DNA from: a virus
DNA: 26,410 nt
IMG/VR virus record: IMGVR_UViG_3300030090_002763
Coordinates: 1-26,410 of that record
Direction: 5' to 3' (one strand)
This document shows, in pieces, positions 11,212-22,406 of the stretch. The notes under the pieces were generated by a model that saw nothing but the letters and a program-made list of their open reading frames with translations, was not told the DNA's origin and did no database searches. The position numbers were made by a program, and so were the translations under genes. How positions within the stretch are numbered: position 1 is the first letter of the stretch; every line of letters starts with the position of its first letter.

Positions 11212-11768
11212 GGGTTGTCACCGAATCCAAAGATCCTTCCGAGGAAAGATCCTTTCTTTGAATCAGCCTTCGTTCCAGACTCATTTGATGCTCCACCCAT
11301 AGTTTTTACAAATTGTCCTCCCATTGTTAATTTTTGACTGACCAAAATATTAGTATTTGTTGCCTTACAATGCAAAGTTGAGGCCTCCAAATTCATAATA
11401 CCAGTGGATCTGAGGGTTAATTCATCTTCCGCATCAAATCTTATGTTTCTACCTTTAAGTAATATATCTCCGTCCTGAGCTTCTATAACAATATTTCCAG
11501 TTGCAGCTGCAATAATTTTAGCTGGTTGATCTTGTTTCTGTTGTTGGCCAACACCTACTGTTTCATATGAACATCCATTTACTACTAATCTTTGTAATCC
11601 ATTTTTATACCATCCTATACCTTGATACTCGTCTGTATATACAGTATAGTCAGTAATAAATTCTTTTAGTTCACCATCAACCAATTTGACACCAGAAGTT
11701 ACTCTGAACCCTGGCTTGTTTTCAAAGAACTTTTTGGTGGTGGGTGTTTGTACGTCTTTATTAGCCAC
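11202..11768 (-). CDS. Spike beta-helix protein (gp5 C-terminal domain as a separate gene), 188 aa
   Basis: Residues about 85-155 form alternating short strands (GNIVIEAQDGDILLKGRNIR, then FDAEDELTLRSTGIMNLEAS), the pattern of the triple-stranded beta-helix of T4 gp5 and VgrG needles. The C-terminus is Gly/Lys rich. The start is GTG at 11768, overlapping the gp5 stop as TAGTG, with a strong AGGAGG site encoded inside the Gly-rich tail of gp5. In T4 this beta-helix belongs to gp5 itself; here it is a separate coupled cistron. It probably forms the membrane-piercing needle under the hub. Confidence is good for the fold, moderate for the role. Confidence 0.75.
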   Translation of the reverse strand: MANKDVQTPTTKKFFENKPGFRVTSGVKLVDGELKEFITDYTVYTDEYQGIGWYKNGLQRLVVNGCSYETVGVGQQQKQDQPAKIIAAATGNIVIEAQDGDILLKGRNIRFDAEDELTLRSTGIMNLEASTLHCKATNTNILVSQKLTMGGQFVKTMGGASNESGTKADSKKGSFLGRIFGFGDNPLN

Positions 11769-14700
11769 TAGTATCCTCCTCCATAGCCACCGCCACCGCT
11801 GGATCCTCCGCTCCCACTTGATCCAGTAGACCCAGTGTTATCAGTATTGTTAGTAGTATCAGTAGTGTTAGGTTGTTGAGGTATTTGCTGAGTTGAAGTT
11901 GTATCACTTGTGTTAGACTGACTCGTTGTAGTGGTGTCGGAAACATTTGTCTGTGGTAATGTAGATTGTTCTATGGCAGATAATTCTGCCTCAGTATAAG
12001 TCACTGGAGCTGCCTGTCCAAGACTTTCTTCTTTTGTATTATATATTGTGGCATGGTAAGTGTTTACATGAACCGCTCCTACCATTTTAGTGCCTGTTGT
12101 TGGGTGAACGTGGAAGTCACCATAATAGGGATTTCCATTTACCCAACCAATTTGTGTTTTAGGTAAACTGTATACACAATCCACAACATTAACTACAAGC
12201 ATTCCAGAGGTAGGTCTTTCCCCAATATCTGCAACATAGTCTGGACTGAATGAAATAATTGGAATAAGTTTTGCTCCCAATCCTGTTTTTGTAACTATCT
12301 TTACTTCTGGGCTGACATTATGTTTATCCAAACAGTTTATATTTTGAACTCCAGCGATTGAACCAGCAGGGGTTAGTAAGAAATCAAATTTACATTGTCC
12401 CACCATACCATAATCGCCAGGTTCATATCCTAGTCCAGGCTTGACAGGTCTTAGGTTGGTAACAATACCAACTGCTTGACTACCTATTCCAGAAACACCT
12501 CTGGTAGTAAAGTTATAAGTATCAGTTTTCGCTATACCAGCAAAAGCATTATCATTCAAGTCTTTAAATGAACCTTCCGACATTGATATGAAGTATTCAG
12601 TATTAGGTCTTAGATCATTTTTTGGATCAACTTTTATGATTCTATCCGAAAGATATGTTATTGATTTATCATTAACATTTATTCTTTCATGAACAATATT
12701 ATTAATTGATTCTGTAATAACGACTTCTCCCTCACCTTTTACAATCGGTTCATTAAAAGTGAGTGAAAGGGATGCGGCAGTTTCAACACCAACTGCATCA
12801 TCAGATGGAGTGGTGAATGTAATGTATGGGGCTATGGTATCTAAATTAGTTCCATCATCACCGTATCCACCAGTAATACCGATGCCAGGCCCTTCTGTGA
12901 CAGGGTACTTAGGTGGAACTACGTTAGTTGATGGGCAATATCCACCACCATTTGACATCATGTAAATATCAACAATCTTTCCATCTGCATCTATAATTGC
13001 CTCTGCTTGAGCACCGCCACCATGTCGAGTCTTATCAATAATTGTTATCTGTGGAGGAACACTATATCCAAATCCTGGCTCTAGTATCTCTAGTGTCAAA
13101 ATACTTCCGTCTATTGAGGATACAATGGGGAATAAGAATGCTGTTTTTGTGCCGTCTCCACCAACCTCTACCTTTGGAGGTATACAATCTTTCCATGTAA
13201 ACCCAGGCGGAACTCCTCTACCTAAATCATCTTGGTTCTGTGGATTTTGAGTTTTCTGATTACAATCAAAGAAATCAGCTACATCATTACCTAATATACT
13301 GAGTAGAGAGAATCTGTCACCATAGTTTATTGGATCGTCTTCCAAAGCTAACTCATTGAGAGTTGCAAATATGTTATTTGCTCTCCAGTTTTTCTTCCTA
13401 TCACTGTCTTGATTTTTTACATAAGCTTTTAGTTGAGTTTTAAGATCATCGGTCACTTTAACTCCACCACCAGCAACAGATACCTGTCCTGTGTCAGTTT
13501 CTAATACACTATTGATTTGTCCATCAGAGAAAGTATCAAACACAGCTTTATTTGATGGGTCAATTTTGACTGGTTTATTCATCTTCTCTGTCGCATTTAA
13601 GATATTCAGCCAACTTCTAGGTGGTTTCTTAAATCCTCCCTCTCCTTGAAGATAATCTTCATATTCCTTACATTGTAGAGTATCACAAGCCAAGAAACCT
13701 AATAACATATCAACATAAGTACTCACCTTTGATAATAGGCCACCAATTCCACTTAACGCTCCCATCAACCAATCTAAACCACCCATTATTGGTTTTAGTA
13801 ACCCATTAATAGAGTCATTAACTGATCCCATAATTGCAGCAACAGTCTGTTCGATAGCACATACAGTAGGATTTAAAGCTTTTCCCACCATGTCCTTGAA
13901 GAGATCCATGAGCATATCTTTGAGACTAAATCCAAGTTTATCAAAAATACAGAAAATTATATCCATTATTCTCTCAAATGCCTTACCAATAGGACTTTGC
14001 TGTGGCTCTGGAACAAGAAACGCTATGAAGTCTTGGAACCTCTTGCCCAAAAACTTCATAACCTTATCTCTAATTAATTTTATAATTTTCTTTATTGCAC
14101 CATTTACTATCCTAACAACTTTTCCAAGCAATTGCTGGATGTCCACTAAGGTATTTCTTGCAGTGTCGATATACTCACCAGCAAACTCTGTCAGGCCATT
14201 TATTGTTGTAAGGAAACTACCTATAGCGTGAGTTACGTCACTGATAGCATCATTCTCACACGCATTACTAAAAGTATGGGGGCCAAGTCCTTTAGGAGCA
14301 TGTTGATCTACATTACTTCCAGAACTAAAAACTCCCTCAAAGTCATTTGGATTGAGCTCAGTGGATTGGCCTACCTTATTATCAGCATTATTTTTTGGTG
14401 TTGATGATATGTTGTTATCACTAACTTTCCTCGTAGTTTCACCAGTGGCATCTCTAGCACCAAATATGCCTAGTTCTGAGTAATCATTGTTTTTAGGGCC
14501 ATATGGTTCAGTAGGTTTTATAGACCTTGCCAATGCACCGAAGATAACTGGTTGTTGTCCGTCCTCTCCATCTAAGAAGAATCCGAACACAGTTTCTCCA
14601 CCAAGCATCATGCTACTGGAACCTAAAGCACCCTGACCAGCTCCTTTAGAGGCATCAACCAGAACATGAGCCCAAGGCAAATCTTCATCTACTATTCCTG

Positions 14701-14878
14701 CCTCAGTGTCATCAAATGTATGATAACCAATTATTCTTACTTTACATCTATATGCCCAACCTTCTTCGTCGTCGGTGGCTTCGTCACGCCAAACCTCTTT
14801 AGGAGCAACTCTGCCTATCCACCAGACAAAGCCGTCCCTTCCAACAAAGTTGGTCTTTAGTAAAGAACTCTCTAACAT
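11768..14878 (-). CDS. gp5: Baseplate central spike/hub protein gp5-like, 1036 aa
   Basis: The N-terminal ~120 residues (FVWWIGRVAP, AYRCKVRIIGYHT, LPWAHVLVD, VFGFFLDG, PVIFGALAR) fit the OB-fold of gp5 hub proteins. Residues ~215-400 are a long hydrophobic helical region. Gly-Tyr loops (EPGFGYSVPPQITI) follow at ~600-650, then an Ig-like Big_5 domain at ~682-793 (TPSDDAVGVETAASLSLTFN), a YYGDFHVHPTTGTKMVGAVH segment near 918-937, a Thr/Ser/Asn-rich linker and a GGGGYGGGY end. The T4 lysozyme-type domain and the beta-helix are not present, so the protein is much longer than T4 gp5 (575 aa) yet lacks two of its domains. It overlaps the CP12 stop by one base and lies close to gp27, its expected partner. 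Confidence 0.85.
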   Translation of the reverse strand: MLESSLLKTNFVGRDGFVWWIGRVAPKEVWRDEATDDEEGWAYRCKVRIIGYHTFDDTEAGIVDEDLPWAHVLVDASKGAGQGALGSSSMMLGGETVFGFFLDGEDGQQPVIFGALARSIKPTEPYGPKNNDYSELGIFGARDATGETTRKVSDNNISSTPKNNADNKVGQSTELNPNDFEGVFSSGSNVDQHAPKGLGPHTFSNACENDAISDVTHAIGSFLTTINGLTEFAGEYIDTARNTLVDIQQLLGKVVRIVNGAIKKIIKLIRDKVMKFLGKRFQDFIAFLVPEPQQSPIGKAFERIMDIIFCIFDKLGFSLKDMLMDLFKDMVGKALNPTVCAIEQTVAAIMGSVNDSINGLLKPIMGGLDWLMGALSGIGGLLSKVSTYVDMLLGFLACDTLQCKEYEDYLQGEGGFKKPPRSWLNILNATEKMNKPVKIDPSNKAVFDTFSDGQINSVLETDTGQVSVAGGGVKVTDDLKTQLKAYVKNQDSDRKKNWRANNIFATLNELALEDDPINYGDRFSLLSILGNDVADFFDCNQKTQNPQNQDDLGRGVPPGFTWKDCIPPKVEVGGDGTKTAFLFPIVSSIDGSILTLEILEPGFGYSVPPQITIIDKTRHGGGAQAEAIIDADGKIVDIYMMSNGGGYCPSTNVVPPKYPVTEGPGIGITGGYGDDGTNLDTIAPYITFTTPSDDAVGVETAASLSLTFNEPIVKGEGEVVITESINNIVHERINVNDKSITYLSDRIIKVDPKNDLRPNTEYFISMSEGSFKDLNDNAFAGIAKTDTYNFTTRGVSGIGSQAVGIVTNLRPVKPGLGYEPGDYGMVGQCKFDFLLTPAGSIAGVQNINCLDKHNVSPEVKIVTKTGLGAKLIPIISFSPDYVADIGERPTSGMLVVNVVDCVYSLPKTQIGWVNGNPYYGDFHVHPTTGTKMVGAVHVNTYHATIYNTKEESLGQAAPVTYTEAELSAIEQSTLPQTNVSDTTTTSQSNTSDTTSTQQIPQQPNTTDTTNNTDNTGSTGSSGSGGSSGGGGYGGGY

Positions 14879-15113: not shown

Positions 15114-16556
15114 CTAATTGAGTCCGTAAGAATCTCTGACGAGATTTAAAGACGTTACATTTTTACCGTCACCTAATTCAAAGTGGTGTCTCATAGCTCT
15201 CACTAAGTAGATACCGCTTAACTCTTGATCAGCCTGTTTCTGGTCTTTACCACCGTCACCCTGTTCGGAAGGGCCTACGTCAGGTAAAACTACCTTCACG
15301 ACTTGACCAACTCGTATTTCATTATTACATGGTATAGTTATATTTAGCGACTGTTGGAAGAGCAACGAATACCGAGAGAAGGATTTTGCCATGTCTTGAG
15401 GATCTCTGCCAGATGTCAATGCTTCACCATCATCATCTTTTTTAAGATCCTTATCAATCATACCATGATCGGTTATCCTAACCAAACGTCTTGATGGTTC
15501 GTCACCAAAAACGTCAGATGTAGGAATAGGAGTCTCTACTCCCATAGTACTCGTTCCGTCAGATCCATTGACCTGATCTTTCAACTTAAATGTATTGTTC
15601 TCTACCTTCCAGTTTAACGGATTTACGGTAGTTGTCAAGTTACTGTAAAGACCAACTCTTAAATTTTTCTGTATATTTACAGTTTTCTCAATGTAATGGT
15701 CTATGATCTTAAAATTATTTTCTGGTTCAGTATCTCTACCAATAGCCGTAGTGTATGTGAATTCGGGTACTCTAGGTTTATTTTTCGGATCATTGAGATA
15801 CTGCACTTCATCATCTGCTGCCTTTATCAAACTGTCAATTGATTTGAATTTATATCCACCATAATCTTCAAAGAATACAAATCCAGATGTACCACTTGCT
15901 TTCCCTTCTTTTATTGGTTGTGCCTTAGGAGCTAATCCAACTATTGTAAAGAATGGTTTTCTATTATTTCCCATGAAGGTATACTGGGTTGCACTATTGT
16001 CTAATTCTATTCTTTCCTGATCTATCTTTAAAGTATCTAACAATATTTCTTCGATGTGAGAAGTGATTGAAGCTCTTTGATATTTCTTGATACATCTCGA
16101 TACTTCATTTCTTAAGTTACCAACTGTACTAAGAACTAAAGTGAAAGTTTCTTGGCTCTCTGTTCTTTGTATATTTTCAATACCCATCACAAAGAATGGA
16201 GTATTGTTTTCATTAAAAGAAAAAGAATCTTGTTCAGACAATATTACCTCAAGGTCTACTCTTTCATATCCCCTAATAGGCATCTTAGCAATAAGGTTGT
16301 TAGTATCTGAAACATGAACGTAACATGTGACTGCTGGAGAGAGAATGTCCTCAAAATAATCAATGTGAGTTATTGATTTTGATACAGCTAAATCAGGAAA
16401 CTTATCTTTATCATCTGGTTCGTCTTCCAAGTTACCTTTATCAATATTTGAATCCCCTCTACCTGTTATACCATCAGGGTTATCTTTTAAAAATGACTTT
16501 ACATCAGTAGGATGAATTAAACATTGTTTTATGTTTACTTTGTTAAGAGTTGACAT
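15114..16556 (-). CDS. gp27: Baseplate central hub protein gp27-like, 480 aa
   Basis: The segment DLAVSKSITHIDYFEDILSP (about 55-74), then VTCYVHVSD, PIRGYERVDLEVI and TFTLVLST fits the tube-like first domain of gp27, which forms the trimeric hub above gp5. The C-terminal part (NITIPCNNEIRVGQVVKVVL, GIYLVRAMRHHFELGD) fits the last hub domain shared with VgrG-type proteins. T4 gp27 has 391 residues; this is longer, with a charged insert near 30-55. It overlaps the upstream muralytic gene by one base (TAATG) and is followed by CP12 and gp5. Confidence 0.85.
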   Translation of the reverse strand: MSTLNKVNIKQCLIHPTDVKSFLKDNPDGITGRGDSNIDKGNLEDEPDDKDKFPDLAVSKSITHIDYFEDILSPAVTCYVHVSDTNNLIAKMPIRGYERVDLEVILSEQDSFSFNENNTPFFVMGIENIQRTESQETFTLVLSTVGNLRNEVSRCIKKYQRASITSHIEEILLDTLKIDQERIELDNSATQYTFMGNNRKPFFTIVGLAPKAQPIKEGKASGTSGFVFFEDYGGYKFKSIDSLIKAADDEVQYLNDPKNKPRVPEFTYTTAIGRDTEPENNFKIIDHYIEKTVNIQKNLRVGLYSNLTTTVNPLNWKVENNTFKLKDQVNGSDGTSTMGVETPIPTSDVFGDEPSRRLVRITDHGMIDKDLKKDDDGEALTSGRDPQDMAKSFSRYSLLFQQSLNITIPCNNEIRVGQVVKVVLPDVGPSEQGDGGKDQKQADQELSGIYLVRAMRHHFELGDGKNVTSLNLVRDSYGLN

Positions 16557-18265
16557 TATGAACCTCCTAAAGCTTGTACTGTAAGCATAGTCAATGAGTC
16601 ATTTGGATTAGTACGGCCACCACCAAAACCGTCACCACCTCCACTTGCAGATGGTGGGGGTGTTGATAGTGGTAACATGCTATTTCTCTTAGCAGGAGCT
16701 TTCAAAATAACGATAGTATTTCCCATGTCAGTTTCAATATCAGTTGATGAGTAATCTTCAATATCTTCTATTTCATCTTTCATCATTAAATTTTTCATAG
16801 ATGACATCAACAAAGATCCACCATCTTTAATTTTTTCTACAAGTGGTTTATTTTCAGACAATATTTTAATTAACTTATCAGCATATACTGGTTTGCCCGT
16901 TACCTCGTCTTTATCTGTTGCAAATCCTTCTTTTTCTAGGTTTCTTGCTACGTCTTCAGCAGATTCGGCATTTGTCTCTACACCAGTATATCCTTTATAA
17001 TCTTTATACCATACTTTTACCAAATAGTCAACTGCCTCCTGAGCATTTTTAAAGTTGATGAAATTAGCCTTCTCTTGATATTTTTTGCCATCTTTTTCAT
17101 ATTCATCTACTACTGCCTCTGTAGAATCCATTCCCTCTACTGCTTTTAAGTTGAAGAAATTATTTGTTCCAATATTGTTCTCACCAGAGGTAGTTTCTAA
17201 TTGATACTGAGCAACAACTGCCTCTGGGTACTTAGCTCCTGACTTCACAGCCATATCATATATAATTTTCTTTCTCTCTTCTATTGGAAGATTCTGATCA
17301 TACTCCAAAGGTTTCTCCACTGCTTGCCCCATGATATTTTCTTGTGGCTGTACTTCAGTGAAAGTTTCAGTTTCATTATTAGTTGTACTATCAGTTAATG
17401 ATACTGTTTTAACTCCACCCAAACTAAATGTTTGAGACATGTCCGCAGCAGCTGCTGGGGGCGTAAATGCATTAACCAGACCTCTACTCAAAACACCAAC
17501 TATGCCACCCCTACTGACATCCACACCAAACAATTTTTTTGATGATTTTTTACCAACACCAGCCATAGGAGTTCCAGACTCCACTAATTTAGTGAATCTC
17601 TCTATCAACTCCGTCAATCTGTCTATTCCCATGGCCTTGGGTTTTTTCTTTTTCTTTTCTTTTTTCTCTTCCTCCTCCTCTCTCTTCTCTTTATCTTCTG
17701 TCTTTTCACCTTCCTCTAATTCTTTAGCATCCAAATTATCTTTCTTCGCCTCTACCTCAGACTTCTTATCATCTGTTTCCTTTTGATCTTGTTCTGGTTC
17801 TTTTATCTTGTCAACATCAACTTTCTTTTCTGTACTAACTTTATTATCTTCATCCACCTGTTTATCAATCACCTCTTTACCTTCATCTCTTTGTTTCTTC
17901 TCCTCGTCTAACTTTTCCTTCATTAATTCATCATCACCACCGTATACTTGCCTTAGTTCTGTTTCTGGATCTACTTCATTGGTTTTAGATCCTCTACCAA
18001 GAAGAAATGGCAACATGAAAAGGGTGCTGAATACGCCTGGTAGTTCGTTGTTTTTCTTTCCTTTACCAACTCTTTTAGAGACAAACTCTTCTGCTTTTTT
18101 AATTGTAGATTCTGATGGTATATCATTCTTTCTTGTGGTACGATCAAAAAGTCTCGTGAATCTTGAAATTTTTGACTCGGCACCATCAACCGCCTTCGTA
18201 GCCTTATTTTGAAGGTCTAATTCAGCTACAGTGAGTTTACCACCTGACGTTGTTATTTTAGCCAT
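16556..18265 (-). CDS. Tape-measure-associated protein with GH73-like muralytic domain, 569 aa
   Basis: Residues ~1-110 are basic and helical with a short hydrophobic patch (GVFSTLFMLPFLLG, ~77-90). Residues ~110-212 are extremely charged Lys/Glu/Asp. Residues ~330-475 resemble a GH73 N-acetylglucosaminidase domain: PEAVVAQYQLETTSGENNIG, FFNLKAVEG, FINFKNAQEAVDYLVKVWY and YADKLIKIL. Glu357 in the QLETTSG motif would be the catalytic acid by analogy with FlgJ-type enzymes. The Gly-rich C-terminus ends LTVQALGGS. The likely role is local peptidoglycan cutting during DNA injection. It lies between the tape measure and gp27 and overlaps the gp27 start; the first codon overlaps the tape measure stop. 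A second tape-measure part is an alternative reading of the N-terminal half. Confidence 0.75.
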   Translation of the reverse strand: MAKITTSGGKLTVAELDLQNKATKAVDGAESKISRFTRLFDRTTRKNDIPSESTIKKAEEFVSKRVGKGKKNNELPGVFSTLFMLPFLLGRGSKTNEVDPETELRQVYGGDDELMKEKLDEEKKQRDEGKEVIDKQVDEDNKVSTEKKVDVDKIKEPEQDQKETDDKKSEVEAKKDNLDAKELEEGEKTEDKEKREEEEEKKEKKKKKPKAMGIDRLTELIERFTKLVESGTPMAGVGKKSSKKLFGVDVSRGGIVGVLSRGLVNAFTPPAAAADMSQTFSLGGVKTVSLTDSTTNNETETFTEVQPQENIMGQAVEKPLEYDQNLPIEERKKIIYDMAVKSGAKYPEAVVAQYQLETTSGENNIGTNNFFNLKAVEGMDSTEAVVDEYEKDGKKYQEKANFINFKNAQEAVDYLVKVWYKDYKGYTGVETNAESAEDVARNLEKEGFATDKDEVTGKPVYADKLIKILSENKPLVEKIKDGGSLLMSSMKNLMMKDEIEDIEDYSSTDIETDMGNTIVILKAPAKRNSMLPLSTPPPSASGGGDGFGGGRTNPNDSLTMLTVQALGGS

Positions 18266-19929
18266 TAATTAGTATCCACAATGTTGAACACAGATTTTGT
18301 GTAAGGTATATGTATGTTTGTGATGTCTATAGGAACAAGTATAGGAACTTTGTTTCCAGTTTTAGACATAGTAGGAACACTAGGCCTCTCTTGACTAGTT
18401 TCTGTTCCTCCTTGTTCTCTAGACATATCAATCACACTAGGTGGAGCCCCAGATCCAAAGTCTGATCCACGTTTATTTGGTTGTTTGGATATATCTTTTG
18501 AAGACTCATATCTTAAATCGGATTCTTCAGTGGAGGCTTCTATCTTAGATGGATCTACCTCTAACTCTGAAAAACCTGAGCCAGGCACATTTGGTTTTTG
18601 CGCTGCTTCAGTTGGTTTTCCTAATCCTAAGAATTCTTTAACATTGTTAACTACGTTCTTAATCTGCATCATTGGATTGAAAGCAAATTCTTGGGATTTC
18701 TCGTTTATATTTCTAGATGAGGATTCTAAATTAGATCCAGACAAACCTAGGCCACCTCTAACACCCTTTTCGCCATCCTTTCCATCTGTTCCATCTTTAG
18801 CACCCTTTACATTAATTCTTAACGCTTTTAAACCCTGTTCCTCCATTAATGCAATTACTTTTTCATAATATTTGATATACCTCTGTGTTCCCGCCATTCT
18901 TTTATTGTCACCAGACTCTTCATACCCTTTGTATTGCTCCTTCTTTTTTTCTAAAAGTTTTTCATAATCTTCTTTTGTTCTGATGATTGTTTTATTATCT
19001 GATGATAAACTTTTTCTTTCTATGACTAACTTACCATCGTCAGTAACAGATATGGTGGCATCAGAAAGAGTTTCACCGCCCATCACATTTTCCTGTGAAT
19101 CAATAGTGGATGTTCCTTCTAACTTCTGTTCCTCTTCCTTAATTATTTGTTTCTTTGCTGCTGCAGCTGCAATAGTATCAAGGTTCTTCTCAAGAAGAGC
19201 ATTTATCTTTGCAAACTTATCTTCCTCTTTCTTTTTCTTTACTTTTTCTTTTCTGTCTTTAAATAAACCCTTTCCAGTAACAAAGTCAGATATTCCTTTT
19301 GCAGCAAGAACTACTCCACCAGTGATCGCACCAACTGTAGCGACTGCACCTAGAACTGGGCCAACAAATGGTGCCGCCAATGCAGCCACACCAATACCAG
19401 CTGCAATCTTTAATATATTACCTACTACTCTCAGAAAACCTCCGCCACCCTTGCCACTGGCCAATTTTTCAACAAACTCTGTTGCTAATCTATTTGCTCT
19501 TTCAAGAAATTCTAGTTGACCAGAATTGGCCATCCTATCCAAAGAATTTCCAAAATCAGTAAGTTTGCTTAATCCACCATCAAATATCTTACTTAAAAAC
19601 TTTTTAGGATCAAATGATTCTACCTGTTGTTCTATCTTATCCGCAGCACCTGAGATGAATGATTTTACCTCATTCCTAGCCATTCTAGCAATAGATGGCT
19701 TTTTGATGGGCGTATCTGCATTTAATGGTAGTTCCAACTGTTTAGGAACATTTAATAAATTATTCTTTCCTTTTGCAGTTGTCTTATTGATATCTGCAAA
19801 CTTCTTTGCTATAGTCCTTCCTTTTCTACCAATCTTTCTTCCTATAAAGGCATTAGTTCTTCTAACAAGACTATTACCTTTTGTAGCCTTCTTGCCTATG
19901 TTTAGTAATCCAGATTTTACTTTAGCCAT
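18265..19929 (-). CDS. Tape measure protein, gp29-like, 554 aa
   Basis: The N-terminus is strongly basic (IGRKIGRKGRTIAKKF). A long hydrophobic Gly/Ala segment at ~164-217 (LKIAAGIGVAALAAPFVGPV) is typical of tape measure proteins that insert into the cell membrane. Charged helical regions (KEKVKKKKEEDKFAKINALL) follow, then a short collagen-like run (DGTDGKDGEKG, ~380-390) and a Pro/Ser-rich end. T4 gp29 has 590 residues, close in size. It follows the gp26/gp51 pair, the usual place for a tape measure after its chaperones, with an 8-nt overlap of gp51 (ATGGCTAA). The assignment rests on composition and position more than on clear sequence identity. Confidence 0.7.
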   Translation of the reverse strand: MAKVKSGLLNIGKKATKGNSLVRRTNAFIGRKIGRKGRTIAKKFADINKTTAKGKNNLLNVPKQLELPLNADTPIKKPSIARMARNEVKSFISGAADKIEQQVESFDPKKFLSKIFDGGLSKLTDFGNSLDRMANSGQLEFLERANRLATEFVEKLASGKGGGGFLRVVGNILKIAAGIGVAALAAPFVGPVLGAVATVGAITGGVVLAAKGISDFVTGKGLFKDRKEKVKKKKEEDKFAKINALLEKNLDTIAAAAAKKQIIKEEEQKLEGTSTIDSQENVMGGETLSDATISVTDDGKLVIERKSLSSDNKTIIRTKEDYEKLLEKKKEQYKGYEESGDNKRMAGTQRYIKYYEKVIALMEEQGLKALRINVKGAKDGTDGKDGEKGVRGGLGLSGSNLESSSRNINEKSQEFAFNPMMQIKNVVNNVKEFLGLGKPTEAAQKPNVPGSGFSELEVDPSKIEASTEESDLRYESSKDISKQPNKRGSDFGSGAPPSVIDMSREQGGTETSQERPSVPTMSKTGNKVPILVPIDITNIHIPYTKSVFNIVDTN

Positions 19930-20113
19930 TGTTTGCTTTTGCTTCTCTAGCTCTTTGTTTTAGTTGTTCTTCTTCAATGTGTAATTTAAGTAGTCCAACA
20001 TAAATGTCTCTCTCCCAAGGAGGCATATTCTCAATTTCTGTTAGAGAGTATTTATGGTACTGCATGAGAGCGAAATTGATTCGGAAGTATGTCTCAAGAT
20101 CAACATGAGACAT
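19922..20113 (-). CDS. gp51: gp51-like tail/hub assembly protein, 63 aa
   Basis: The protein is small and helical: YFRINFALMQYHKYSLTEIE, then MPPWERDIYVGLLKLHIEEE. The 'M-P-x-W-E-R-x-I-Y' pattern recalls the T domain of long tail-assembly chaperones, and the position corresponds to gp51 in T4, although T4 gp51 is much longer (249 aa). It has no ribosome site of its own: the bases before the ATG are TTTTTTCGTCTAAGT. It lies in the -1 frame relative to gp26, with a slippery heptamer just before the gp26 stop, so it is probably made mainly as a gp26-gp51 fusion. Confidence 0.7.
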   Translation of the reverse strand: MSHVDLETYFRINFALMQYHKYSLTEIENMPPWERDIYVGLLKLHIEEEQLKQRAREAKANNG

Positions 20114-20115
20114 AC

Positions 20116-20835
20116 TTAGACGAAAAAATCCGTTAGCCCCTCTAGTACCACAGTATTTTCTTTCTTAGTGTTGGGATTTATTACTTTTAAAGTATGTTGT
20201 AACTTAGGCATAGTCTCAAAAAACTTTTCAATTTTTTGAAAATGTTCTGATGTCAATGATTCGACCCATTCTTTAAGTTCTTTTTTAGTACATTCAGATG
20301 CTGAAAACATCTCTTTATCATTATAAACCATATCAATGGATGAAGCCACAACATTAAATGATTTTTCAACCTGATCCTGTTCATCATCTGTGAAGTTAGT
20401 TTCTATAAACTGACTCAATGATGGATATTTCATTTTCACAGTGTACCCATCTGATAATTCTACATCAGGCGAGTGATCTTCGGATTTCATAACTTTTATA
20501 TCATCAATGTTCACAGTTACAGGAACTTCTGTTTTGCCATCATCACCACATGTAACAACAAGTTCAATAGTCTCACCTACAGATTTGGCACGAATATTTA
20601 AAAATAAGTATTCAATGTCAAAACTCGGTAGAGTATCAATCTTGATGCCTTTGGTTATAACACATTCTTTAAGAACCTGTTTTACAGCATTAGTAATTTG
20701 TTTTTGATCTTGCGATTCAAGTGCTAGTATGAGAATTTTTTCTTCTCTCACCAAAAATGGTCTATACTTTACAGTTTTTCCATTTGATGGCAATGTCAAC
20801 TCATACTCAGCCGTCGTAATTTTAGGTAAGGGCAT
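20116..20835 (-). CDS. gp26: Baseplate hub assembly protein gp26-like (short form of a frameshift pair), 239 aa
   Basis: The N-terminus MPLPKITTAEYELTLPSNGK, then VKYRPFLVREEKILILALES, matches the T4 baseplate assembly family PF12322 (T4 gp26, 208 aa). The middle has a beta-rich part with IELVVTCGDDGKTEVPVTVN, and the C-terminal third is helical. It is not expected in the finished virion and probably assists hub or tape-measure assembly. A late-promoter-like TCTAAATA ends 20 nt before the ATG, and no ribosome site is clear. The gene ends GAT TTT TTC GTC TAA, which carries a canonical -1 slippery site. A shift there would give a 304-residue gp26-gp51 protein. Confidence 0.85.
   Translation of the reverse strand: MPLPKITTAEYELTLPSNGKTVKYRPFLVREEKILILALESQDQKQITNAVKQVLKECVITKGIKIDTLPSFDIEYLFLNIRAKSVGETIELVVTCGDDGKTEVPVTVNIDDIKVMKSEDHSPDVELSDGYTVKMKYPSLSQFIETNFTDDEQDQVEKSFNVVASSIDMVYNDKEMFSASECTKKELKEWVESLTSEHFQKIEKFFETMPKLQHTLKVINPNTKKENTVVLEGLTDFFV
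20122..20128 (-). promoter_or_regulatory. -1 ribosomal frameshift site T TTT TTC
   Basis: The heptamer is in the gp26 frame exactly as X XXY YYZ, two codons before the gp26 stop. After a -1 slip the reading continues CGT CTA AGT ATG TCT CAT, straight into gp51 with no stop. The pair lies immediately upstream of the tape measure gene, the position of lambda G/GT and many other tail chaperone frameshifts. Confidence 0.65.
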
Positions 20836-20866: not shown

Positions 20867-21904
20867 TCAGCCGAGAGCTGATTTATTGGCTGGATCTATT
20901 TTCTTTTCTTCAGCCATTTGTTCAAGGTCATCAGTCTGTACAACATAGTATCTGTCATATGAAAAATCAACTTGGACTTGTAATACTTGACCGTTTCCAT
21001 AATTCAATGGAATATCCTGTATTGCTATTGGAAATGCATTTATAAAGTTATAACTTATGACATCGGGTGTAGCTTCGGGCCCACCAAAATCGTATATGGT
21101 TGGTTCTTCACTCGGAGGAAATACTTTATTAAATCCCTCAAATACATCTTTACCACCAATACCAATATCTGTGTAAGAGGGCCCTAAATTTGAGGAGTAT
21201 CTGTTTTTTGTTCTTTCATAAGGTTTTAGATGCATGTCTCTTTCAAATTTAGTAATTTGGATATCTCTCTTATATTGATTAGGATATCTAAATCTATGAA
21301 ATCCATTTAATGCTCCTGATGTAGGATATCCGCCTGGAGCTCCTGTAGGGAAAGGTTGTCCATCATTGCCTGTGAAAAGAGGATTCATATAGTTAATCCA
21401 TTCTTGGAATAATCTAAGAGATTTATAATCACTTGTTACATAAAATCCAATAGAGATATCAGTATATTGTCTTTGTGTCGCAAATCTTTCTCGTATTCCC
21501 TGTCTACTACCAACTTCTTGTACAACAGACATACTTGTTCCAGGCAGGGTAGCATCTGTTGCTAGTAATTCAAATCTTCTATGTTTATCTGTATCTCTAA
21601 AAACTCCACAACTTGTCAACCAATCATCTAAAGTTTTGGCCACAAGTTGATTCTTAGAGGCTGTTTGTATTTGAGATAACGTTAATCCACCACCATCTAT
21701 CGGAAACTGTGTTCTTGGTGGAGGATTAGAAGGAGCTAAATCCATAGACACTTTAAAATAATTAGATAGAGAAGGAGCTCCTAGTGCCTGTTGAAAGTTC
21801 TGCAAATCAGCAGGGTTCTTTATATCTGCCGACCCTAAATCAACACTTGCACCAAGTGGCCCTACCTTATTGAAATAATTTTTTATGTGATTTATCCCTG
21901 CCAT
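20867..21904 (-). CDS. gp54: Baseplate tail-tube initiator gp54-like, 345 aa
   Basis: The C-terminal part YNFINAFPIAIQDIPLNYGN followed by VLQVQVDFSYDRYYV has the tail-tube fold signature shared by tube, gp48 and gp54 proteins. SMSVVQEVG, RQYTDISIGFYVTSDY and FQEWINYMNP (about 130-175) also fit tube-type proteins. T4 gp54 (320 aa) starts tube polymerisation on gp48, and gp48 is encoded across the divergent spacer. It is the first gene of the long leftward operon and has a late-promoter-like TATACATA upstream but no ribosome site. Another tube-like baseplate protein is possible. Confidence 0.65.
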   Translation of the reverse strand: MAGINHIKNYFNKVGPLGASVDLGSADIKNPADLQNFQQALGAPSLSNYFKVSMDLAPSNPPPRTQFPIDGGGLTLSQIQTASKNQLVAKTLDDWLTSCGVFRDTDKHRRFELLATDATLPGTSMSVVQEVGSRQGIRERFATQRQYTDISIGFYVTSDYKSLRLFQEWINYMNPLFTGNDGQPFPTGAPGGYPTSGALNGFHRFRYPNQYKRDIQITKFERDMHLKPYERTKNRYSSNLGPSYTDIGIGGKDVFEGFNKVFPPSEEPTIYDFGGPEATPDVISYNFINAFPIAIQDIPLNYGNGQVLQVQVDFSYDRYYVVQTDDLEQMAEEKKIDPANKSALG

Positions 21905-21947: not shown

Positions 21948-22406
21948 ATGGCTTATAAGGGGAAATTCAAACCAAGACATATTAAAAAGTATAAAGGTGA
22001 TCCCACTCAGATCATTTATCGTTCTCTTTGGGAGAAAAAGTTTATGGAATACTGTGATCTGACAGAGAACATAAGTCAATGGCAGTCAGAGGAATTTTGG
22101 ATACCATACAAAAATCCTTTAGATAGAAAAATACACAGATACTTTCCAGACTTTTTTATTAAGTATACAGATGCAAATGGAAAGAAAAGATCTGTGGTTA
22201 TAGAAGTGAAACCCAAGAAACAATGCAAGGCTCCACCAAAGAATCCCAAAAAGAGAAATAAAGCGTGGGCCAACAGTGTTCAAACATGGGTTATAAATGA
22301 AGCAAAGTGGAAAGCAGCAGAACAATACTGTGCTGATAGAAAATATGAATTTAAAATCTTAACAGAAGACGATTTAGGTATCTCACATGATCGCAGAAGA
22401 TATTAA
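21948..22406 (+). CDS. gp4: Head completion protein gp4-like with nuclease-like motif, 152 aa
   Basis: The sequence MAYKGKFKPRHIKKYKGDPT, then YRSLWEKKFMEYCD, matches T4 gp4, needed to finish DNA-filled heads before tail joining. A PD-(D/E)XK arrangement is visible: Glu29 in the first helix, Pro67-Asp68 in YFPDFF, and Glu86-Val-Lys88 in VVIEVKPKK, followed by a helix and the C-terminal strand FKILTEDDL. This is the layout of TnsA/Holliday-type nuclease folds. The length equals the T4 protein (about 150 aa). An AAGGG site precedes the ATG. The last 20 nt overlap the next gene. Confidence 0.88.
   Translation: MAYKGKFKPRHIKKYKGDPTQIIYRSLWEKKFMEYCDLTENISQWQSEEFWIPYKNPLDRKIHRYFPDFFIKYTDANGKKRSVVIEVKPKKQCKAPPKNPKKRNKAWANSVQTWVINEAKWKAAEQYCADRKYEFKILTEDDLGISHDRRRY

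Follow-up and report, generated by a model that had tools for sequence, protein, structure and literature searches.

Does a T4-like phage make gp26 and gp51 from two genes, or from one gene read in two frames? The question is raised by a 26.4-kb IMG/VR virus record (26,410 nucleotides, analysed over its whole length and called the window here), which comes from a marine T4-like cyanophage-type myovirus. Very probably, a share of the ribosomes shifts back by one base shortly before the end of gp26, which yields a longer gp26-gp51 protein, and the two forms, short and long, very probably serve as the tail-assembly chaperones (TACs) of the phage. We give a probability of about 0.88 to the full reading, in which gp26-gp51 is one gene with two products made by -1 frameshifting, both acting as tail-assembly chaperones. 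The site, its phase and conservation, the open -1 frame, the start-less relatives, the stimulator candidates, the predicted fold and the two-gene version in T4 are derived from sequence. We infer the slippage and its rate, the chaperone function and its partners, and the tape measure role of a 554-aa ORF. The answer matters because tail-assembly chaperones were long believed to be missing from T4-like phages, and in many database entries a single gene is cut into 'gp26' and 'gp51', or gp51 is overlooked.

The gp26-gp51 junction and its surroundings

On the minus strand of the window, the gene order is tail tube, gp26, gp51, the 554-aa ORF, a 569-aa ORF, a phrog_350 tail protein and a gp5-like protein. 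The relevant features are as follows.

20867..21904, minus strand: tail tube protein gene, directly upstream of gp26 (PF23849, E 2e-13; phrog_45, E 2.8e-37)
20116..20835, minus strand: gp26, 239 aa, putative short form TAC-N and equivalent of lambda gpG (PF12322, E 2.5e-74; phrog_150, E 3e-80)
20137..20142, minus strand: Shine-Dalgarno-like GAGGGG, a possible frameshift stimulator, 8 nt 5' of the heptamer and 23 nt from the gp51 ATG
20122..20128, minus strand: slippery heptamer T TTT TTC, its A-site codon two codons ahead of the gp26 stop
20085..20117, minus strand: stem-loop with arms 20117-20106 and 20096-20085, the 5' arm containing the gp51 ATG
20111..20113, minus strand: annotated gp51 ATG, probably just a Met codon at a position that is M or L in relatives, with no Shine-Dalgarno at initiation distance
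19922-20113, minus strand: gp51 as annotated
19922..20122, minus strand: -1 frame extension (putative TAC-C, 'gp51'), R-L-S plus 63 aa (phrog_634, E 1e-25)
19922..20835, minus strand: predicted gp26-gp51 fusion (putative TAC-NC and equivalent of lambda gpGT), 304 aa, with the layout of the single-gene T4 gp51
18265..19929, minus strand: 554-aa ORF, presumed tape measure, overlapping the end of gp51

The 554-aa ORF is taken as the tape measure gene from its position and length. Family or tape measure matches were sought for the 554-aa and 569-aa ORFs and none was found, apart from a glucosaminidase domain in the 569-aa ORF (16556-18265, minus strand; PF01832, E 5e-12). This second ORF is flanked by the presumed tape measure gene and by the gene of the phrog_350 tail protein, and its product is probably a tail-borne cell-wall enzyme. 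Elsewhere in the window, the head closure protein gp4 (21948-22406, plus strand) matches a TnsA-like endonuclease fold (PF08722, E 1.8e-23), and the gp5-like protein (11768-14878, minus strand, 1036 aa) carries a Gp5 OB domain and an Ig-like Big_5 domain.

Read along the minus strand, the junction is ...CTA GAG GGG CTA ACG GA[T TTT TTC] GTC TAA GT ATG TCT CAT..., with the heptamer in brackets. That is, gp26 ends with the codons GAT TTT TTC GTC TAA, its stop occupying 20118-20116. The preliminary description had placed the heptamer in the exact 0-frame slip phase two codons 5' of this stop, had described the -1 frame as open via R-L-S into gp51 with a product of about 304 aa, and had seen no ribosome site for gp51; all of this is borne out. 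The -1 reading is F-F-R-L-S-M-S-H..., open to 19922, and translation of the predicted fusion, complement(join(19922..20122,20122..20835)), gives 304 aa. The sole purine-rich element near gp51 is the one 23 nt from its ATG. In the window and in nearly all of its relatives, the site has the X XXY YYZ form of a bacterial-type -1 ribosomal frameshift site in 0-frame phase. Within the window, T TTT TTN occurs in phase only once in about 8,460 codons. All in-phase X XXY YYZ motifs together number 44, however, so the heptamer alone is weak evidence, and the case for a frameshift site becomes strong through conservation among relatives.

In the proposed mechanism, the majority of ribosomes would end at the gp26 stop and release the 239-aa protein, and a fraction would slip by -1 on U UUU UUC and continue into the 304-aa fusion. 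Slippage would be aided from upstream, where the Shine-Dalgarno-like element would pair with 16S rRNA, and from downstream, where the stem-loop would meet the ribosome entrance. The short and long proteins would serve as the tail-assembly chaperones TAC-N and TAC-NC. Both would coat the tape measure protein, with the gp51 portion recruiting the tail tube subunit, like lambda gpG/gpGT.

Predicted fold and function of gp26 and gp51

gp26 lies just after the tail tube gene (20867-21904), the place expected of a TAC gene. Its predicted model (window gp26, pLDDT 89) best matches three solved structures, namely 3FGX (Z 8.0, rmsd 4.0, 86 aligned), 2OB9, the HK97 chaperone (Z 7.9, rmsd 3.9, 84 aligned), and 3KLU (Z 7.3, rmsd 4.2, 86 aligned), all of which are recognised tail-assembly chaperones (PMC9603447). 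The next match falls to Z 4.9. With three solved TACs ranking top at moderate Z, residues 1-96 of gp26 are predicted to adopt the TAC fold. Support from family sequence searches was weak (Phage_TAC_3 and TAC_7 at E 0.07-0.13), and a sequence search with the gp26 profile against solved structures returned no useful match. A fold search with a T4-like gp51 model likewise gave no TAC match and no clear match of any kind, which weighs neither for nor against the TAC fold. The Z 4.9 structure is PDB 5IR0, ORF19 of a Vibrio cholerae PICI-like element, which may itself be a chaperone-like protein.

It had been suggested from the window's letters that the locus mirrors the G/GT arrangement and that gp26 and gp51 are the equivalent chaperones of T4-like phages. 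The first proposal is backed by the gene order on the tail-tube side, the predicted fold and the short/long logic, and the second is supported by the match of the predicted gp26 fold to solved chaperones. For Acinetobacter phage Konradin, 'tape measure protein assembly chaperone' is already the GenBank label of gp26 and gp51. Another view grants the fusion but sees in gp26 and gp51, instead of chaperones of the tape measure, components of the baseplate hub or catalysts of its assembly. It follows the historic T4 annotation, and genetic studies support gp26 in the hub according to one review, but the same review lists both T4 proteins as hub assembly chaperones and describes T4 gp51 as required, yet absent from the particle (PMC3004832). 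A hub role also sits poorly with the resemblance of the gp26 model to tail-assembly chaperones, and with a short/long frameshift logic and a tail-tube neighbour that are typical of the chaperone family. We consider it improbable.

Conservation of the site and the route to gp51

Relatives were collected by six gp26-seeded scans of viral contigs and from a set of named phages, which yielded 382 loci, 366 of them with enough sequence. T TTT TTN is found in phase, 1-9 codons ahead of the gp26 stop, in 364/366; the seeds share this layout, so the figure holds for the single-copy lineages and does not extend to the T4 clade. Conservation across relatives had been named as a check on the frameshift claim, which thus survives it. 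KVP40, Aeh1, HTVC008M and PhiW-14 keep the motif, and the -1 extension is open, at 56-73 aa, in all 364 heptamer-bearing relatives. The codon ahead of TTT is invariably NNT, though it encodes S, D, N, A, T, H or R. Conditioned on amino acids and gp26 codon usage, the joint probability of this constancy is about 10^-36 for 97 dereplicated relatives, on the not fully justified assumption that they are independent. In the rest of these genes slippery codons are rare (13/19,982). The observation is accurate and goes far beyond what chance would produce.

The two exceptions among the 366 are Vibrio K362 and Vibrio YC. As a point against the reading, they and the Vi01-type Ackermannviridae (18 loci plus Vi01) keep gp51 in the -1 frame in the absence of the canonical heptamer. 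In the Ackermannviridae the end of gp26 is a conserved GAR ATT TTC ATY TAA in place of the heptamer, which suggests that a different slip may be used, perhaps with T TTC in the P site. In these loci (L426-L443 and L412), gp51 mostly lacks a usual start near the junction.

How else might gp51 be made? It could be a separate protein produced by termination-reinitiation at UAAGUAUG, the T-run being a by-product of a conserved Phe-Phe. An ATG does stand within 2 nt after the stop in the window's clade, and stop and start overlap (TAATG) in some relatives. Against this, 45/97 dereplicated relatives have an ATG no more than 7 codons from the slip and 52/97 have none, so that in about half of them gp51 seems reachable solely by frameshifting. 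At the position of the gp51 ATG itself, 36 of 79 relatives have M and 41 have L. The -1 frame is also the constrained one 5' of the ATG: across 193 loci with an ATG, the residue that follows the slip in the -1 frame is R in 176 and Q in 17, but the same bases read in the 0 frame give a varying residue (G/A/V/S). A conserved Phe-Phe would hardly account for the T-run, given that just 5/100 other Phe-Phe pairs in the same genes are slippery. Finally, T4 has both domains in one protein, and in the window's clade the gp51 ATG sits inside the stem. The strong separate gp51 start that had been named as a refutation of frameshifting is not seen in the sequences, and we regard reinitiation as very unlikely.

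Annotations reflect the same difficulty. In phage DSL-LC03 and Aeromonas phage Ah1, gp51 is unannotated and has no ATG near the junction. Public annotations of four loci (L001, L049, L050 and L054) omit gp51 or begin it at an internal ATG, as is expected if gp51 has no start of its own.

Frameshifting at the heptamer would be helped by two candidate stimulators, neither of which the preliminary description had noticed; it also passed over the two-gene arrangement of T4 and the 2022 publication discussed below. The Shine-Dalgarno-like element keeps a spacing of 8-11 nt to the heptamer among relatives, its anti-Shine-Dalgarno pairing exceeds a synonymous null (p 5e-11), and GAG is preferred over GAA there (48/73, vs 578/1982 elsewhere; p 3e-10). 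In presence and spacing it is the putative upstream stimulator of a bacterial-type -1 site. Downstream, a 12-bp stem begins 4 nt 3' of the heptamer in the window. Its folding z is -6.2 against synonymous-codon shuffles (computed on the relative L003, identical in sequence here) and -2.7 against dinucleotide shuffles, and over 97 relatives the mean z is -1.8 (Wilcoxon p 7e-14, kinship ignored). Pairing in the stem amounts to 86% across 93 distinct relatives, vs 28-43% at slid registers, and compensatory pairs are present. The window's clade thus appears to have the covarying downstream RNA structure of a bacterial-type -1 site.

The stem-loop is not universal: many start-less lineages form it poorly or not at all, and a strong stem is mostly lacking in such lineages. 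Mean folding energy is -6.3 kcal/mol in relatives with no nearby start codon vs -11.2 kcal/mol in those with one, kinship again being ignored. In the S-PM2 group there is a different stem in another register, and a single structure shared by all relatives was rejected because of this difference between the two clades. A tentative and somewhat doubtful extension is that, in cyanophages with a nearby gp51-frame start, the stem-loop would both stimulate frameshifting and hide the start, so that gp51 is never made alone.

The same signals bear on the idea that the frame change stems from transcriptional slippage and not from the ribosome: the tract is indeed a homopolymer of 6-7 T, but it always reads NNT TTT TTN, a tandem-slip phase that RNA polymerase slippage does not need, and the Shine-Dalgarno-like element and stem-loop stand at spacings typical of ribosomal frameshifting, which together make this origin highly unlikely.

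T4 and other known systems

In T4 the -1 frameshift appears to have been replaced by a second gene. In T4 gp51 (249 aa), residues 1-201 match PF12322 and residues 147-246 the gp51 extension family; T4 gp51 is thus a full gp26-like protein plus the gp51 extension, that is, the fusion encoded as one gene. On these domain matches T4 gp51 is the predicted long form, and T4 gp26 the predicted short form. Two PF12322 genes are present in T4, the T4-like record G002, 44RR, RB49, KP15 and Konradin, and those T4-type gp26 genes that were inspected showed no T TTT TTN near the gene end. A single PF12322 gene was seen in 18 other genomes, among them the Straboviridae Aeh1, Ah1 and KVP40; the heptamer is kept in 15/18, the other three being K362, YC and Vi01. 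With two genes and no heptamer, T4 appears to have swapped frameshifting for gene duplication, the direction of change being inferred.

A 2016 review described G-T frameshifting as conserved in long-tailed phages except T4 (PMC5009743). Lambda gpG and gpGT are a short and a frameshift-extended chaperone that serve the tape measure and tail tube proteins (PMC5009743), like the pair proposed here; by comparison, gp26 has an additional domain and is the larger protein, the slippery site reads T TTT TTC, and no recognisable sequence similarity to gpG/gpGT was found in this analysis. In Pseudomonas phage Adele and the Vandenendeviridae, a -1 frameshift likewise occurs at a T-rich site, leading into a downstream ORF formerly called 'hypothetical', with an invariant GTTTTT motif in contrast to the T TTT TTN seen here (PMC12846349). 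A passage of that paper (its ref 76) cites T4-like chaperone work for polyT slippery sequences in TAC-N genes (PMC12846349).

Our data agree with the later view that frameshifting is widespread in T4-like phages and that T4 uses two genes. Vladimirov, Gautam and Davidson (Virology 2022, 566:9-15) reportedly identified the T4-like tail-assembly chaperones and frameshifting in several T4-like groups, with T4 genes 26 and 51 said to encode the short and long forms separately. The genes and the -1 frameshift idea are the same here, and the window comes from a relative that has not been cultivated; the reading of gp26/gp51 as chaperones and T4-like frameshifting, already proposed in 2022, are hence supported but not new. 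The cassette of Shine-Dalgarno-like element and stem-loop, and the start-less lineages, may be additions to published knowledge. In the E. coli dnaX signal, a Shine-Dalgarno-like element lies about 10 nt upstream of the heptamer and a stem-loop a few nt downstream. The window site has the same layout, in a different gene; the dnaX heptamer is A AAA AAG and dnaX has no chaperone role. For T4-like phages, the putative RNA signal set of the window site is unusually complete, which makes it a good natural test bed for how a phage sets its short:long chaperone ratio.
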